DNA of 64,000 nt from assembly GCF_034377285.1 (NCBI RefSeq), contig NZ_CP139715.1, positions 2,650,001-2,714,000 on the forward strand, in the 5' to 3' direction. The stretch comes from Thalassobaculum sp. OXR-137. GTDB taxonomy: Bacteria; Pseudomonadota; Alphaproteobacteria; Thalassobaculales; Thalassobaculaceae. The notes below the pieces were generated by a model. The model made no database searches. It was not told where the DNA came from and saw nothing but the letters and a program-made list of their open reading frames with translations. Of this stretch, positions 26,155 through 43,855 are shown one piece after another. Numbering within the stretch: position 1 is the stretch's first letter; each line of letters begins with the position of its first letter. The position numbers and the translations under genes are program-made.

Positions 26155-26173
26155 CCACCCATCTCCCCACATC

Positions 26174-26202
26174 CGTCATCCCGAAACAAGTTCGGGATGA
26201 CG
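26174..26202. terminator. Perfect 12-bp stem hairpin after bcp
   Basis: CGTCATCCCGAA and TTCGGGATGACG pair perfectly around an ACAAG loop, 20 bases after the bcp stop. GTGTTATTTT follows. It fits a terminator and also resembles a palindromic intergenic repeat, since CGTCATCCC and GGGATGACG recur at the ends of the next element. Confidence 0.7.
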
Positions 26203-26218
26203 GTGTTATTTTAACGAA

Positions 26219-37975: not shown

Positions 37976-39097
37976 ATGGACACGAAAGACACATACACCG
38001 CCATCGGCCTGATGAGCGGCACCTCCATGGACGGCGTCGACGCCGCCGTGGTGGTTACCGATGGGCGCGACCGGCTGGACCGCGGCCCGGCGCTGACGAT
38101 CCCCTATGACGACGGCTTCCGCGCCCGTCTGCGCGCCGCGATCCAGGGAACCGGCGACATGGACGCCGTCGAGGTGGAGATCACCGACCTGCACCGCGAT
38201 GCGGTCCGCGCGCTGATGGAGCGGGCGGGGTTGTCGGCGGAGGCGGTCGATATCGTCGGTTTCCACGGCCACACGGTCCTGCACGAGCCGGAGGTGGGGC
38301 GCACCCGGCAGATCGGGCTGAGCCAGCGGTTGGCGGATCATCTGGGCATCGACGTGGTCGGCGATCTGCGCCTGGCCGACATGGCCGCCGGCGGACAGGG
38401 GGCGCCGGTCGCCCCGGTCTATCATCGCGCGCTGGCCGGTCCCGAGGCGCGGCCGGTGGTGGTGCTGAACATGGGCGGCGTCGCCAACGTCACCTGGCTC
38501 GGTGCCGGGGAGACCGACCTGATCGGTTTCGACACCGGCCCCGGCAACGCGCCCATCGACGACTGGTGCTGGCGGACCGTCGGTCGGATGTACGACGCCG
38601 ACGGTGCGCTGGCCAAGGCCGGGACGGTGGACCCGGCGCGGCTGGCGCGGATGCTGGAAGATCCGTATTTCGACCGCAAACCGCCGAAGTCGCTGGACCG
38701 GGACGCCTTCCATGCACGGGTCGCCGAGGCGGTGGAGGGGCTGTCGCCGGAGGATGGAGCGGCCACGCTGGTGGCGTTCAGCGCCACGACCATCGCCCGC
38801 TCGGCCCGCTGGTTCCCGGCACCCCCGACCCGCTGGATCGCCACCGGCGGCGGCCGGCACAACCCGGCCCTCATGGCGGCGATCGCCGATGCGGTGGAGG
38901 GAGAGGTCGTCGATGCCGACGATCTGGGATGGGACGGCGATGCGCTGGAGGCGGAAGCCTTCGCCTATCTGGCGGTCCGCTCGATCCTGGAGCTGGATAT
39001 CACCTTTCCGGGGACGACCGGCGTGGCCGCACCCCGGACCGGTGGAAAGCGCTACTTCTCTTCGGTCTCGGCCGCCGGGACGTTGGCGTCGAGATAG
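37976..39097 (+). CDS. anmK: Anhydro-N-acetylmuramic acid kinase
   Basis: AnmK (373 residues) phosphorylates 1,6-anhydro-MurNAc with ring opening during peptidoglycan recycling. The ATP-site motif AIGLMSGTSMDGVDAAV starts the protein. The catalytic and sugar-binding region has VGFHGHTVLHEP, LRLADMAAGGQGAPVAPVYH, VLNMGGVANVTWL and IGFDTGPGNAPIDDW. The C-terminal RWIATGGGRHNPALMAAI, GDALEAEAFAYLAVRS and FPGTTGVAAPRTGG are standard. No ribosome-binding site is visible before this ATG. The normal C-terminus is reached at about 39049; 16 extra residues run into the convergent hydrolase gene and overlap it by 46 bases. Confidence 0.95.
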   Translation: MDTKDTYTAIGLMSGTSMDGVDAAVVVTDGRDRLDRGPALTIPYDDGFRARLRAAIQGTGDMDAVEVEITDLHRDAVRALMERAGLSAEAVDIVGFHGHTVLHEPEVGRTRQIGLSQRLADHLGIDVVGDLRLADMAAGGQGAPVAPVYHRALAGPEARPVVVLNMGGVANVTWLGAGETDLIGFDTGPGNAPIDDWCWRTVGRMYDADGALAKAGTVDPARLARMLEDPYFDRKPPKSLDRDAFHARVAEAVEGLSPEDGAATLVAFSATTIARSARWFPAPPTRWIATGGGRHNPALMAAIADAVEGEVVDADDLGWDGDALEAEAFAYLAVRSILELDITFPGTTGVAAPRTGGKRYFSSVSAAGTLASR

Positions 39098-39711
39098 CCG
39101 CCGACCATCCGGCTCAGATCGTCGATCTGCGGGCCGAAGAAGTGGTTGGCGCCCTTGATCACGTTGTGGGTGATCGTGATGCCCTTCTGGGTGGACAGCT
39201 TATCGACCAGCTTCTTCACCGAATCGGCCGGGACGATCTCGTCCTTGTCGCCGTTGATCACCAGGCCGGAGGCCGGGCAGGGGGCGAGGAAGGTGAAGTC
39301 GAACAGGTTGGCCGGCGGGGCGATGGACACGAACCCGCTGATCTCCGGGCGGCGCATGAGCAGCTGCATGCCGATCCAGGCGCCGAAGGAGAAGCCGGCG
39401 ATCCAGCAGTACCGGGCGTTCGGGTTGTAGGTTTGCAGCCAGTCCAGGGCCGAGGCGGCATCGGACAGCTCGCCCTCGCCGCCGGAATAGACGCCCTGGG
39501 AGCGTCCGACGCCGCGGAAATTGAACCGCAGTGTCGAGAAGCCTCGGGCGACGAACGTCTGATACAGCGAGTACACCACCTTGTTATTCATGGTGCCGCC
39601 GTGCTGCGGATGGGGGTGCAGCATCAGGGCGATCGGCGCGCCGGGGTCCTGGGCGTGTAGGTAACGCGCTTCGATGCGGCCTTCGGGGCCGTTGATCATG
39701 ACCTCGGGCAT
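39052..39711 (-). CDS. Alpha/beta hydrolase (dienelactone-hydrolase-like, Rrf2-linked type)
   Basis: This 219-residue alpha/beta hydrolase has LMLHPHPQHGGTMNNKVVYSLYQTFVARGFSTLRFNFRGVGRSQG, the typical beginning of the alphaproteobacterial family found beside Fe-S regulators. The nucleophile elbow is IAGFSFGAWIGMQ (Ser in GFSFG). The acid is in SGLVINGDKDEIVPADSVKKL, and the His in IKGANHFFGPQIDDL. The start MPEVMINGPEGRIEARYL at 39711 follows GGAGG at slightly long spacing; the very long upstream frame, antisense to the next genes, is rejected. The substrate is unknown. The final 46 bases overlap anmK. Confidence 0.86.
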   Translation of the reverse strand: MPEVMINGPEGRIEARYLHAQDPGAPIALMLHPHPQHGGTMNNKVVYSLYQTFVARGFSTLRFNFRGVGRSQGVYSGGEGELSDAASALDWLQTYNPNARYCWIAGFSFGAWIGMQLLMRRPEISGFVSIAPPANLFDFTFLAPCPASGLVINGDKDEIVPADSVKKLVDKLSTQKGITITHNVIKGANHFFGPQIDDLSRMVGGYLDANVPAAETEEK

Positions 39712-39899
39712 TCTGGTGGAGTCCTCCGGATCGGCATTGAACCAGACCACATAGCGCGGCCGGCGCCCCTTGTCTAATCCGACGCTTGCGGCAGGGTCAT
39801 TTGCGGCACGCATGGCGGAGATCGGAACGGCCCGTCCGCCCGTCAACCCCGCCCATTCCCGACGGCTCCGCATGAGTACGGCGGCGGGAAGCGGGATAT

Positions 39900-39934
39900 T
39901 TGCGATTTCACACAAAATCATTGTGAAATCGTAA
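39900..39934. promoter_or_regulatory. 13-base inverted repeat, likely operator, in the hydrolase-Rrf2 spacer
   Basis: TTGCGATTTCACA (39900-39912) and TGTGAAATCGTAA (39922-39934) are complementary at 12 of 13 positions around a 9-base AT-rich centre, the geometry of a dimeric regulator site. It lies in the 375-base spacer 39712-40086, which otherwise shows only promoter-like AT-rich DNA, for example TTGAATACCCG and AGTTTTTTCC upstream of the Rrf2 gene, and no gene. The TGTGA core recalls CRP/FNR-type sites; the regulator is unknown. Confidence 0.6.
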
Positions 39935-40086
39935 GACATGCTGCATTTCGCCTTGAATACCCGTACAAACCGAATTAGTTTTTTCCTTGGCTCGGTCGGG
40001 CGATGGGAACGGGACCTCCTCTCGCCAGAACAATCTTGGGGTGTCAGCCGCGTTTGGTCGCTGCTGCCAAGTGGAGAGGTCTGATC

Positions 40087-40548
40087 GTGAAACTCAGCAC
40101 GAAGAGCCGGTACGCCGTCATGGCGATGTGTGATTTGGCGTCCAGTGCCCAGGGCCGGCCCATTTCGCTCGCCGAAATCGCCCAACGGCAGGATATTTCC
40201 CTGTCTTATCTCGAACAGCTGTTCGCCCGGCTCCGCCGCGCCGGACTGGTCCGCAGTGTGCGCGGACCCGGCGGCGGCTATCTGCCGGGCAAGGCGCTGG
40301 GCGACATGCGGATCGCCGAGATCGTCCAGGCCGTCGATATCGACAGTCCGCGCGGAAGTTGCACGCCCGGTGCGCCCCATTGCTGTTCCGAGAAGAACGC
40401 CACCTGCCAGACCCACGACCTGTGGGAGCAGCTCGGCAACCAGATGCTCTGGTATCTGAACCGGGTCACCGTCGAGCAGGTGCTGACCGGGAACGTTCCG
40501 GGTGCGACCACCGCGAAGGATCCCAAGGCCCAGGCTGCGGCCGATTGA
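40087..40548 (+). CDS. Rrf2 family Fe-S regulator, IscR-like
   Basis: This 153-residue Rrf2 protein has an N-terminal winged helix (KLSTKSRYAVMAMCDLA, ISLAEIAQRQDISLSYLEQLFARLRRAGLVRSVRGPGGGYLPG) and a cysteine loop around residues 92-107. Cys92, Cys99/Cys100 and Cys107 sit in GSCTPGAPHCC and NATCQTHDLW; E. coli IscR has Cys92, Cys98 and Cys104 with the same THDLW continuation, so a [2Fe-2S] cluster is likely. GTG at 40087 is chosen because GGAGAGG precedes it; the ATG at 40003 lacks this. It probably senses Fe-S status and controls the downstream desulfurase gene. Confidence 0.93.
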   Translation: MKLSTKSRYAVMAMCDLASSAQGRPISLAEIAQRQDISLSYLEQLFARLRRAGLVRSVRGPGGGYLPGKALGDMRIAEIVQAVDIDSPRGSCTPGAPHCCSEKNATCQTHDLWEQLGNQMLWYLNRVTVEQVLTGNVPGATTAKDPKAQAAAD

Positions 40549-40683: not shown

Positions 40684-41793
40684 ATGACGACCTATCTCGA
40701 TTACAATGCGACCGCGCCGATCCGTCCGTCGGTGATCGACGCCATGACGGAGGCGGCGCGGACCCACGGCAATCCGTCCTCGGTCCATGCCCAGGGGCGG
40801 GCCGCCCGGCACCGCATCGAGGCCGCGCGGCGGGCCGTGGCCGCCCTGGTCGGCCGGGAGGGCGCCGATGTCGTCTTCACCTCTGGCGGCACCGAGGCCG
40901 ATGCCCTGGCCGTGCGCGGCCTGGGCCGCACCCCCATCCTGGTCTCCGCCATCGAGCACGACGCGGTCCTGGCCGCGGCTCCCGATGCGCCGCGCATCGC
41001 GGTGACCGGCGACGGGGTGATCGACCTGGCCGAGCTCGAGGCCCGGCTGACGCCGCAGACCCCCGGTCTGGTCTGCGTGATGTGGGCCAACAACGAGACC
41101 GGCGTGGTGCAGCCGATTGCCGAGATCGCCCGTCTCGCCCATGCCGCGGGGTGGCTGCTGCACGTGGACGCGGTCCAGGGTGCCGGACGGCTCGATCCCG
41201 CCGCGGTGGGGGAGGTCGATTCCCTGGCCCTGTCCGCCCATAAGATCGGCGGCCCGCCCGGCATTGGCGCCCTGGTGCTGCGCGACGGGCTCGCCGTGAC
41301 CGCGCTGATCTGCGGCGGCGGACAGGAGCGGGGCCGCCGTTCCGGTACAGAGAATGACGTGGGCATCGCAGGGTTCGCCGTCGCCGCCCGCGAGGCGGCC
41401 GAGACGCGGGAGCCGGAAACCCGCCGGCTCATCGACCTGCGCGACCGGATCGCGGCCGGCGTGACCGCCGCCGCTCAGGAAGCCCGGATCATGGGGGCGG
41501 GAGCGGAGCGGCTGTGCAACACGCTCTCCATCGCCCTGCCGGGCGTGGCCGCGGAAACCCAGGTGATGGCCCTCGACCTCGCCGGCATCGCCGTCAGCGC
41601 CGGTTCGGCCTGCTCGTCGGGCAAGGTGAAGCGCTCCCACGTGCTCGACGCCATGCATCCGGGGGATCCGATCGCCGGCCAGGCCATCCGCGTCAGCCTC
41701 GGCTGGGCCAGCACGACGGAGGATGCCGATCGCTTCTTGCACGCCTGGGGCGCGATGCGCGACCGTCTGTCCCCCGCCGCATCCCAACCCTGA
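40684..41793 (+). CDS. Cysteine desulfurase (NifS/IscS-like)
   Basis: This 369-residue class V aminotransferase-fold PLP enzyme takes sulfur from cysteine for Fe-S clusters or tRNA thiolation. It has YLDYNATAPIRPSV and HGNPSSVHAQGRAARHRIEAARR at the N-terminus, then VFTSGGTEADALAV and VMWANNETGVVQPI. The PLP lysine is in LALSAHKIGGPPGIGAL and the catalytic Cys in SAGSACSSGKVKRSHVL. The last motif, with a Cys-Ser-Ser-Gly loop, is the NifS/IscS type. It starts 135 bases after the Rrf2 gene. No suf or isc genes follow; tenA and mnmA do, suggesting sulfur supply for 2-thiouridine and possibly thiamine. Confidence 0.95.
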   Translation: MTTYLDYNATAPIRPSVIDAMTEAARTHGNPSSVHAQGRAARHRIEAARRAVAALVGREGADVVFTSGGTEADALAVRGLGRTPILVSAIEHDAVLAAAPDAPRIAVTGDGVIDLAELEARLTPQTPGLVCVMWANNETGVVQPIAEIARLAHAAGWLLHVDAVQGAGRLDPAAVGEVDSLALSAHKIGGPPGIGALVLRDGLAVTALICGGGQERGRRSGTENDVGIAGFAVAAREAAETREPETRRLIDLRDRIAAGVTAAAQEARIMGAGAERLCNTLSIALPGVAAETQVMALDLAGIAVSAGSACSSGKVKRSHVLDAMHPGDPIAGQAIRVSLGWASTTEDADRFLHAWGAMRDRLSPAASQP

Positions 41794-41816
41794 CGTCGAA
41801 ACGAAAGACCTGTCCG

Positions 41817-42503
41817 ATGACCGAGATCGTGCCCGCCGGAAGTTTCCTTGGCCGTCTGATCGCCGCCTGCCCCGATGCCTGGGCGCGCTACACCGATCAT
41901 GCCTTCGTGCGCGGCCTGGCCGACGGCACCCTGCCGCAGGCGGCTTTCCGGCACTATCTGGCCCAGGACTATCTCTTCCTGATCCATTTCGCCCGGGCCT
42001 ACGCGCTGGCGGTCTACAAGGCCGACGACCTCGCCGAGATGCGCGCGGCCGCGGCCACGGTGAACGGCCTGCTCGACACCGAGATGAGCCTGCACGTGAA
42101 ATATTGCGCCGGATGGGGGCTGACCGAACCGGAGATGGCCGCGATCCCCGAGGACCCGGCCTGCGTCGCCTATACCCGCTACGTGCTGGACCGGGGCATG
42201 GCGGGCGATCTGCTGGATCTGCAGGCGGCGCTGGCGCCCTGCGTGGTCGGCTACGGCGTCATCGGCGCCCGGATCGCCGCCGATCCGGCGACCGTGCGCG
42301 GCGACAGCAATCCGTATGAGGCCTGGATCGCCATGTATTCCGGCGCCGATTATCTCGACATCGTCCGTGGTGCCGTCGCCCAGTTCGACCGGCTGGCCGA
42401 CAAGCGCGGCGGCGATGCCCGCTTCGCCTCCCTGTCGAAGACCTTCACCGCCGCCACCGAGCTGGAGGTCGATTTCTGGCAGATGGGACTGAACGCGGTC
42501 TGA
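41817..42503 (+). CDS. tenA: TenA family aminopyrimidine aminohydrolase (thiaminase II)
   Basis: This 228-residue all-helical TenA protein salvages the thiamine pyrimidine by hydrolysing aminomethyl-HMP. Typical features are [42 protein letters not shown] near the N-terminus, and [15 protein letters not shown], with the conserved active-site Cys. [15 protein letters not shown] and the C-terminal [12 protein letters not shown] contain the conserved Glu and aromatic residues. It is cytoplasmic. It starts 23 bases after the desulfurase gene. The association with a desulfurase and mnmA fits a shared sulfur or thiazole context, but may be only positional. Confidence 0.93.
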
Positions 42504-42562: not shown

Positions 42563-43855
42563 ATGAGCCCGAAGAGCGACCCGTTCCCCGATCTGGATCT
42601 CGGCCTGCCCGGCCCGCGCAGCGCGCGGCGCGTGGTCGTTGCCATGTCCGGCGGCGTCGACAGTTCGGTCACGGCCGTCCTGCTGAAGGAGGCCGGTTAC
42701 GACGTGGTCGGCATCACCCTGCAGCTTTACGACCACGGCATGACCGTCGGCCGCAAGGGCGCGTGCTGCGCCGGCCAGGACATCTACGACGCCAGCCAGG
42801 TCGCCGAGCGGGCCGGCATCCCGCATTACGTCCTCGACTACGAAAGCCGCTTCCGCGAGAGCGTGATCGACGATTTCGCCGACAGCTACCTGCGCGGCGA
42901 GACGCCGATCCCCTGCGTGCGCTGCAATCAGACGGTCAAGTTCCGCGACCTGCTGGCCACCGCCCGCGACCTGGGCGCCGACGCGTTGGCGACCGGACAT
43001 TATGTGCGCCGCGTCGTCGGGCCGGCCGGCACCGAACTGCACCGGGCCGTCGATCCGGGCAAGGACCAGAGCTATTTCCTGTTCGCCACCACCCGCGAGC
43101 AGCTCGACTTCCTGCGCTTCCCGCTGGGCGCCCTGACCAAGGAGCAGACCCGCGATCAGGCCCGCCGCCTCGGCCTGGAGGTGCAGGACAAGCCGGATAG
43201 CCAGGACATCTGCTTCGTGCCGAACGGCAACTACGCCGAGATCGTCAAGAAGCTGCGTCCCGGTGCGGCCGATCCGGGCGAGATCGTGCATCTGGACGGC
43301 ACCGTCGTTGGGCGCCACGAGGGCATCCTCCACTACACGATCGGCCAGCGCCGCGGCCTCGGCATCGGCGGCCGCAAGGGCGAGGACGGTTTGCCGGACA
43401 CCGACCCGCTCTATGTGGTCCGCCTGGAACCGGAGACCCGCCGTGTCGTGGTCGGCCCGCGTGCCGCTCTCGGCGCCGACGAGGTGCGGGTCGGGCGGCT
43501 CAACTGGCTGGGAGATGGGTCGCTGGACTCGGGAGCGGCCGAGACCGGCATCCGGGTCGCGGCGAAGCTGCGCTCCGCCCAGGCGCCGGCTGTGGGCACG
43601 CTGTACCGCGACGGGCAGGGCGCGCGGCTGATCCTCGACGACCCACAGTTTGGCATTTCGGCCGGTCAGGCGGCGGTTTTCTACGGCGTCGAGCCGGAGG
43701 GGCAGACGGGGGCCGAGGCGGGCTCCCGCGTGCTCGGCGGCGGCTGGATCCTGGGGACGGGGAGCGGAACGGGTGGTGTGGTGGAAAAGACAACGTCCCC
43801 GCGCTTGACACCGGCACCGACCCCCCGTATATCGCCGGTCTCCGTGGCGGAGTAG
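42563..43855 (+). CDS. mnmA: tRNA-specific 2-thiouridylase MnmA
   Basis: MnmA (430 residues) makes the 2-thio group of U34 in tRNA-Lys, -Glu and -Gln. The PP-loop [26 protein letters not shown] lies at residues 25-50. The catalytic cysteines are in [12 protein letters not shown] and [65 protein letters not shown] and [12 protein letters not shown] are standard. The family C-terminus is reached at SRVLGGGWI; a further 34 low-complexity residues follow and the stop lies inside the tRNA-Met gene (10-base overlap). The sulfur comes from a desulfurase, probably the one upstream. Confidence 0.95.

Follow-up and report, generated by a model that had tools for sequence, protein, structure and literature searches.

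A palindrome upstream of iscR in Thalassobaculum sp. OXR-137 is a candidate genus-level operator

The gene for an IscR-like regulator in Thalassobaculum sp. OXR-137 (genome G000) is preceded by a long palindrome; this raises the question of whether the palindrome is a control site and, if so, which protein reads it. The window referred to here is the whole stretch of 64,000 nucleotides that was analysed, and its relevant features are listed in Table 1. The reading favoured below, at a probability of about 0.6, is that the palindrome is a putative transcription-factor operator of the iscR-iscS-tenA-mnmA promoter. It is ordinary in kind: a candidate lineage-specific control site.

Table 1. Features of the iscR locus, in window coordinates.
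Feature	Position	Strand	Remarks
Alpha/beta-hydrolase-like gene, divergent, bounding the spacer	39055-39711	-	No NCBIfam model over its cut-off
Palindrome, left arm	39900-39912	.	TTGCGATTTCACA; TTGCGATT in 4/4 aligned genus members
Palindrome, central spacer	39913-39921	.	9 nt; one base more in G004
Palindrome, right arm	39922-39934	.	TGTGAAATCGTAA; ATCGT in 4/4 aligned genus members
Putative iscR promoter (TTGAAT, 17 nt, TAGTTT)	39953-39981	+	Conserved block in AT-rich island
iscR 5' leader	39989-40086	+	GGGACC loop conserved; complements GAGGTC of the ribosome site
iscR-like Rrf2 regulator, 153 aa	40087-40548	+	Best family TIGR02010 (IscR), 156.5 bits
Cysteine desulfurase (NifS/IscS-like)	40684-41793	+	Best family TIGR03402 (NifS), 320.1 bits
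TenA thiaminase II	41814-42503	+	TIGR04306, 154.8 bits (cut-off 130)
MnmA tRNA 2-thiouridine synthase	42563-43855	+	NF001138, 412.6 bits (cut-off 284)

A preliminary description of this DNA had given the length of the spacer before iscR as 375 bases. That is correct: the spacer is bounded by the start of the hydrolase gene at 39711 on the minus strand and that of iscR at 40087 on the plus strand. The spacer had also been called otherwise featureless; this is wrong. In an alignment of four species of the genus (G000, G002, G003 and G004), three further stretches of it are conserved: a promoter-like block (39952-39982), with 25 invariant columns of 31, the leader (39983-40086), with 56 of 107, and a hydrolase-side block (39712-39781), with 55 of 70. 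GC content is 0.36-0.39 over the 90 nt from the palindrome onward, compared with 0.61-0.73 in the 90 nt upstream. Since a scan for consensus sigma-70-type promoters found nothing at threshold, the iscR promoter and start site are treated as putative.

The iscR-like gene heads a sulfur-handling set that continues with cysteine desulfurase, TenA and MnmA genes. The earlier picture of a palindrome that resembles an operator and precedes such a gene is supported. The IscR-like protein falls below the TIGR02010 cut-off (207.55 bits) and above the cut-off of rrf2_super. The desulfurase likewise scores under the cut-offs of its NCBIfam families, including TIGR03402 (530.75 bits); the next-best families are also cysteine desulfurases. 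The gene order tyrS-anmK-hydrolase/iscS-tenA-mnmA is common to G002, G003 and G004.

Two SufB/D-type genes are located elsewhere in the genome (G000:C1:3249630 and 3251731), behind another Rrf2 gene. Directly before this suf-side Rrf2 gene is a different palindrome, ATACCGTACTGGAAAGGTACGGTTT (about 1470-1494 of locus L121, near G000:C1:3248470). The sequence of its right half, GGTACGG, recurs in G002-G004, G008, G009 and G010 and is absent from two g2 genomes and from G007; a similar half, ATA(n)CCGTAC, is found in the iscR promoter block of g1. No match to the G000 IscR at E 0.001 is found in G001 and G005. These two genomes belong to the same genus and comprise about 1.5 Mb each in one contig, about a quarter of the usual size; they are listed as 99% complete and look like reduced genomes.

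The near-perfect 13-base inverted repeat with a 9-base spacer that had been reported is confirmed at 39900-39934: the 13-nt arms are complementary at 12 of 13 positions, the odd position being G/T, around 9 nt. In first-order Markov simulations of the iscR spacer, a repeat of such quality (arms of 13, at most one mismatch, loop of 3-20) arose in 110 of 20,000 cases. Across the whole window there are nine placements at seven places, compared with 3.5 on average in 60 simulations (maximum 13). Because such repeats are not rare across the window, symmetry alone is weak evidence; the palindrome is credible because it is conserved in relatives. A separate, perfect 13-nt inverted repeat at window positions 26173-26203, around GTCATCCCG...CGGGATGAC, occurs at eight genome places with up to two mismatches, compared with one for a reversed control pattern; it is a dispersed REP-like element.

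With up to three mismatches allowed and two positions left open, the palindrome is found in 3 of 61 genomes. These are G000, G002 and G003, all of the same genus, and the palindrome lies before iscR each time; the conservation in relatives on which the preliminary description had staked its proposal is thus found in these three. A fourth genus member, G004, has a decayed copy, TTGCGATT...CATTGT...ATCGT. Both arms have lost their inner half, and the centre, CAAAATCATTGT, is identical to that of G000; the pattern in G004 is therefore unlike the prediction of a simple symmetric operator.

Across the four aligned species, the palindrome has 23 invariant columns of 36. The sequence upstream, on the hydrolase side, has 23 invariant columns of 133 (30 gapped), and the stretch between the palindrome and the -35 has 3 of 17 (none gapped). 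The distance of the invariant ATCGT from the -35-like TTGAAT is exactly 20 nt in all four species, though the intervening bases vary; from the palindrome start to TTGAAT the distances are 53, 53, 53 and 54 nt. The distance of the palindrome is fixed towards iscR and not towards the hydrolase gene. Part of this conservation is shared descent, because only four related species are compared.

The palindrome has the generic properties of an operator: it is symmetric and is conserved above its flanks upstream of orthologous genes in four species, in one of which it is largely desymmetrised. It is real and, to judge from these alignments, probably functional as a genus-level operator. The protein that would bind here is expected to be symmetric, a dimer or a tetramer, and to touch both half-sites, whose centres are 22 bp apart, or about two helical turns. 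The site centre would lie about 71 bp upstream of the iscR start (near -71), at a fixed distance from the -35; this position would suit an upstream activator touching RNA polymerase, or a protein that loops to or cooperates with a second site. Protein binding at the palindrome, the direction of control and the iscR start site are each things that we infer.

A search for the motif upstream of other genes had been proposed; it leads nowhere else in G000, where the palindrome is single copy at up to three mismatches of 26 positions. There is likewise no second copy in G000 at up to three mismatches of a 20-position core. Among the six genomes of the genus, G002 and G004 each have one further match to this core, with three mismatches. 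Among 385 genomes drawn from the class, a draw that left out G003 and G004, four match the core at one mismatch: G000, G002, G039 and G331. The last two are unrelated genomes, and both matches overlap long open frames. G000 has no copy unrelated to iscR by which a regulon could be defined.

None of 22 regulator or site patterns fits the palindrome better than it fits shuffled sequences. The patterns rejected in this way are CRP, FNR, FixK, HcpR/Rex, Fur, Mur, Irr, NsrR, OxyR, RisR, CIRCE, parS, LexA, NikR, BirA, ModE, dif and five IscR patterns. Both Caulobacter IscR patterns and the E. coli type 2 pattern were taken from the available portion of PMC11475020, and the RisR pattern from that of PMC9973013; the alphaproteobacterial type-1 pattern was derived from iscR loci, and the other patterns are taken as background. 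Among the literature matches listed for the palindrome and for both arm strings, none appears, in the text available for them, to describe it.

A single-copy operator beside a regulator gene is often autoregulatory. The alternative that survives best, though it is unlikely, is that the palindrome is a new operator of IscR itself, by which autoregulation in this genus would have replaced a type-1-like promoter box. Elsewhere in the Alphaproteobacteria, 25 of 26 iscR loci have such a box at the promoter; this is an upper figure, because the loci were hand-picked from 80 and the pattern was taken from some of those counted. The exception, locus L096, has no TTGAC candidate. A matrix built from the 25 loci scores 17.9 to 33.4 on its source sites and 8.1 at the best place across the whole window; for a type 1 operator (ATACTTGACY-N4-YACTYGGG-like) in the G000 spacer the best score is -3.3. 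In the spacers of seven family relatives the best scores are -4.0 to 6.2, and eight family spacers are negative for the box. That it was not found in G000, G002, G003 and G004 would fit a replacement within the genus.

The cluster ligands of the protein bear on the same alternative. All four cluster ligands, three cysteines and one histidine, are in place in the G000 IscR, spaced C-x7-C-x6-C-x2-H as in the Magnetospirillum protein L041. The three species with this arrangement have an intact palindrome, and it is decayed in G004, whose IscR keeps one such cysteine; this correlation hangs on a single step, that of G004. Further points against autoregulation are that the palindrome resembles neither the type 1 nor the type 2 sites of E. 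coli and Caulobacter beyond the level of shuffles, and that the IscR helix stretch I37-A47, which we take to be the DNA-contacting part, is invariant in five aligned proteins although the palindrome is unlike IscR sites. The E. coli type 2 consensus has 10 mismatches of 24 in the palindrome region (76% of shuffles equal) and the Caulobacter type II consensus 9 of 27 (63% of shuffles equal), both as given in the accessible part of their source.

Among 12 IscR proteins of the family, complete cluster ligands are present only in G000, G002 and G003. The other nine IscR-like proteins (L005, L006, L007, L015-L019 and L024) lack two or all three of the ligand cysteines. The G004 protein keeps one cysteine and the histidine, the two g6 proteins the histidine only, and the five g2 proteins one cysteine; G008 keeps none. 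In a protein tree in which 17 of 27 inner branches have support below 80, g1 and g6 fall together, and g2 and the long branch of G008 stand apart from them. Because of this placement, the g2 and G008 proteins may not be of the same lineage as g1, although in the two g2 genomes that were inspected the neighbouring genes agree with those of g1. The cluster ligands have probably been lost more than once, and the tree leaves the branching order within g1-g6 unsettled.

Some regulation of this gene set may lie downstream of the promoter, in the leader RNA. All nine species compared (two genera; four species from g1 and five from g2) have the GGGACC loop, and its GACCTC/GACCCC is complementary over 6 bp to GAGGTC/GGGGTC in the Shine-Dalgarno region, in 52 of 52 cells. 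The pairing is without covariation, because five of the six pairs never vary. Two g1 leader hairpins are paired in 64 of 67 cells over four species, with one both-sided change; covariation in the hairpins is not above that of shuffles (249 of 500 give as much), and the leader fold shows no excess stability over shuffles (z +0.59). Among 36 family genomes, a model of the leader matches no species beyond the nine it was trained on; the searches of the family and of the order took in the same 36 genomes. As a lead, the alignments suggest that the leader could be a translational switch.

A broader scenario, which we regard as speculative and rather unlikely, is that control has been rewired in this family (Thalassobaculaceae-type). 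The IscR box would have gone and the cluster ligands would have been lost; in the genus, the palindrome, bound by a regulator other than IscR, and the leader RNA, with its GGGACC loop free to pair at the ribosome site, would instead tie the genes to the demand for sulfur or tRNA thiolation, not to Fe-S status. The usual self-control box of IscR was not found in this family, and the cluster ligands are missing from most members examined; this would make the family a natural test of IscR function without a cluster, and of how the gene set is controlled in that case.

Another alternative, with a low probability, is that the palindrome functions as a hairpin in RNA, within an extended plus-strand transcript from an upstream iscR start, and is not bound by a protein as DNA. 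The predicted fold is stronger on the plus strand (-15.2 kcal/mol, z -4.88) than on the minus strand (-11.5 kcal/mol, z -3.03). The transition-type arm asymmetries (position 3 in all four species, 11 in G002 and G003, 1 and 8 in G004) all read as G-U on the plus strand; they are few, however, and a one-way lean could arise by chance. G004 has retained the loop and lost the inner stem, which is the opposite of what a hairpin needs, and a conserved promoter-like block lies downstream of the palindrome. Rfam returns just three microRNA families, far under their cut-offs, so that no known RNA family is indicated. A scan for terminators found none.

No more probable than the hairpin is the possibility that the palindrome is a functionless inverted repeat, inherited within an AT-rich promoter island. 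Repeats of equal quality occur at seven places in the window and the inner arms have been lost in G004, as might be expected of such a relic; against this, the palindrome is more conserved than both of its flanks and keeps a fixed distance to the promoter block.

The TGTGA cores had led to the suggestion of a CRP/FNR-like regulator. A CRP box has the form TGTGA-N6-TCACA. Both pentamers, TGTGA and TCACA, are indeed present; however, they are everted (TCACA-N9-TGTGA), so that the order is reversed and the spacing is 9 instead of the 6 or 4 of CRP and FNR boxes. The palindrome contains neither a TGTGA-N6-TCACA box in that order nor an FNR/FixK box (TTGAT-N4-ATCAA). The best CRP fit has 3 mismatches of 10, a level reached by 26% of 300 shuffles, and the best FNR fit 4 of 10, reached by 89% of 300; an HcpR/Rex-type site has 5 of 14, not beyond shuffles. 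In addition, one TGTGA reads TGCGA in G002 and G003. With the pentamers everted and the fits at the level of shuffled sequence, a CRP/FNR-type operator is very improbable; with it, the proposed link to carbon or oxygen state loses its support.

The dif site is the 28-bp XerCD site at which GC skew and KOPS polarity turn. That the palindrome is this terminus site can practically be dismissed: it is single copy, lies at position 2,689,900 of the 5,459,747-base contig (49%) and has arms loosely resembling dif arms, but there is no GC skew turn at 39900, all 22 copies of the KOPS-like GGGNAGGG in the window are on the plus strand and none is on the minus strand, five of these copies lying beyond the palindrome with no turn in polarity, and the best dif fit has 10 mismatches of 21 specified positions. 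The dif consensus itself has no match in the genome at three mismatches, so that the search did not locate the true dif site. The GGGNAGGG copies span window positions 530-59979 in the 64 kb, on the plus strand only; the terminus should therefore lie downstream of the window.

Known operators of iron-sulfur genes give the closest comparisons for the putative operator. The IscR type 1 and type 2 operators of E. coli and Caulobacter are likewise elements at the promoter of a gene set headed by iscR. The palindrome differs from them in sequence, in length (35 bp versus about 25-29) and in position, since it lies about 71 bp upstream of the putative start whereas IscR operators overlie the promoter. 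In Caulobacter, according to the accessible part of the study, the IscR regulon has two motifs; isc-suf is derepressed without IscR and is not under OxyR control, and iron depletion raises its expression where the upstream sequences are retained (PMC11475020). The RisR operator of Myxococcus is also a palindrome that controls iron-sulfur assembly genes; as described in the available text, it has the form GAC-N7-GTC and lies at the promoter hexamers (PMC9973013). This pattern fits the present palindrome with 4 mismatches of 10, and 97% of shuffles do equally well.

If the operator reading is true, the palindrome joins the lineage-specific control sites at Fe-S/sulfur gene sets. Rhodobacteraceae provide another alphaproteobacterial lineage in which the IscR site and the cysteine ligands both depart from the E. 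coli pattern. There, in the portion of the report available, the Iron-Rhodo-box is 19 bp long, is bound by a single-cysteine IscR and is found before many iron genes (PMC4618611); compared with the box as so described, the palindrome is longer and is present in a single copy.
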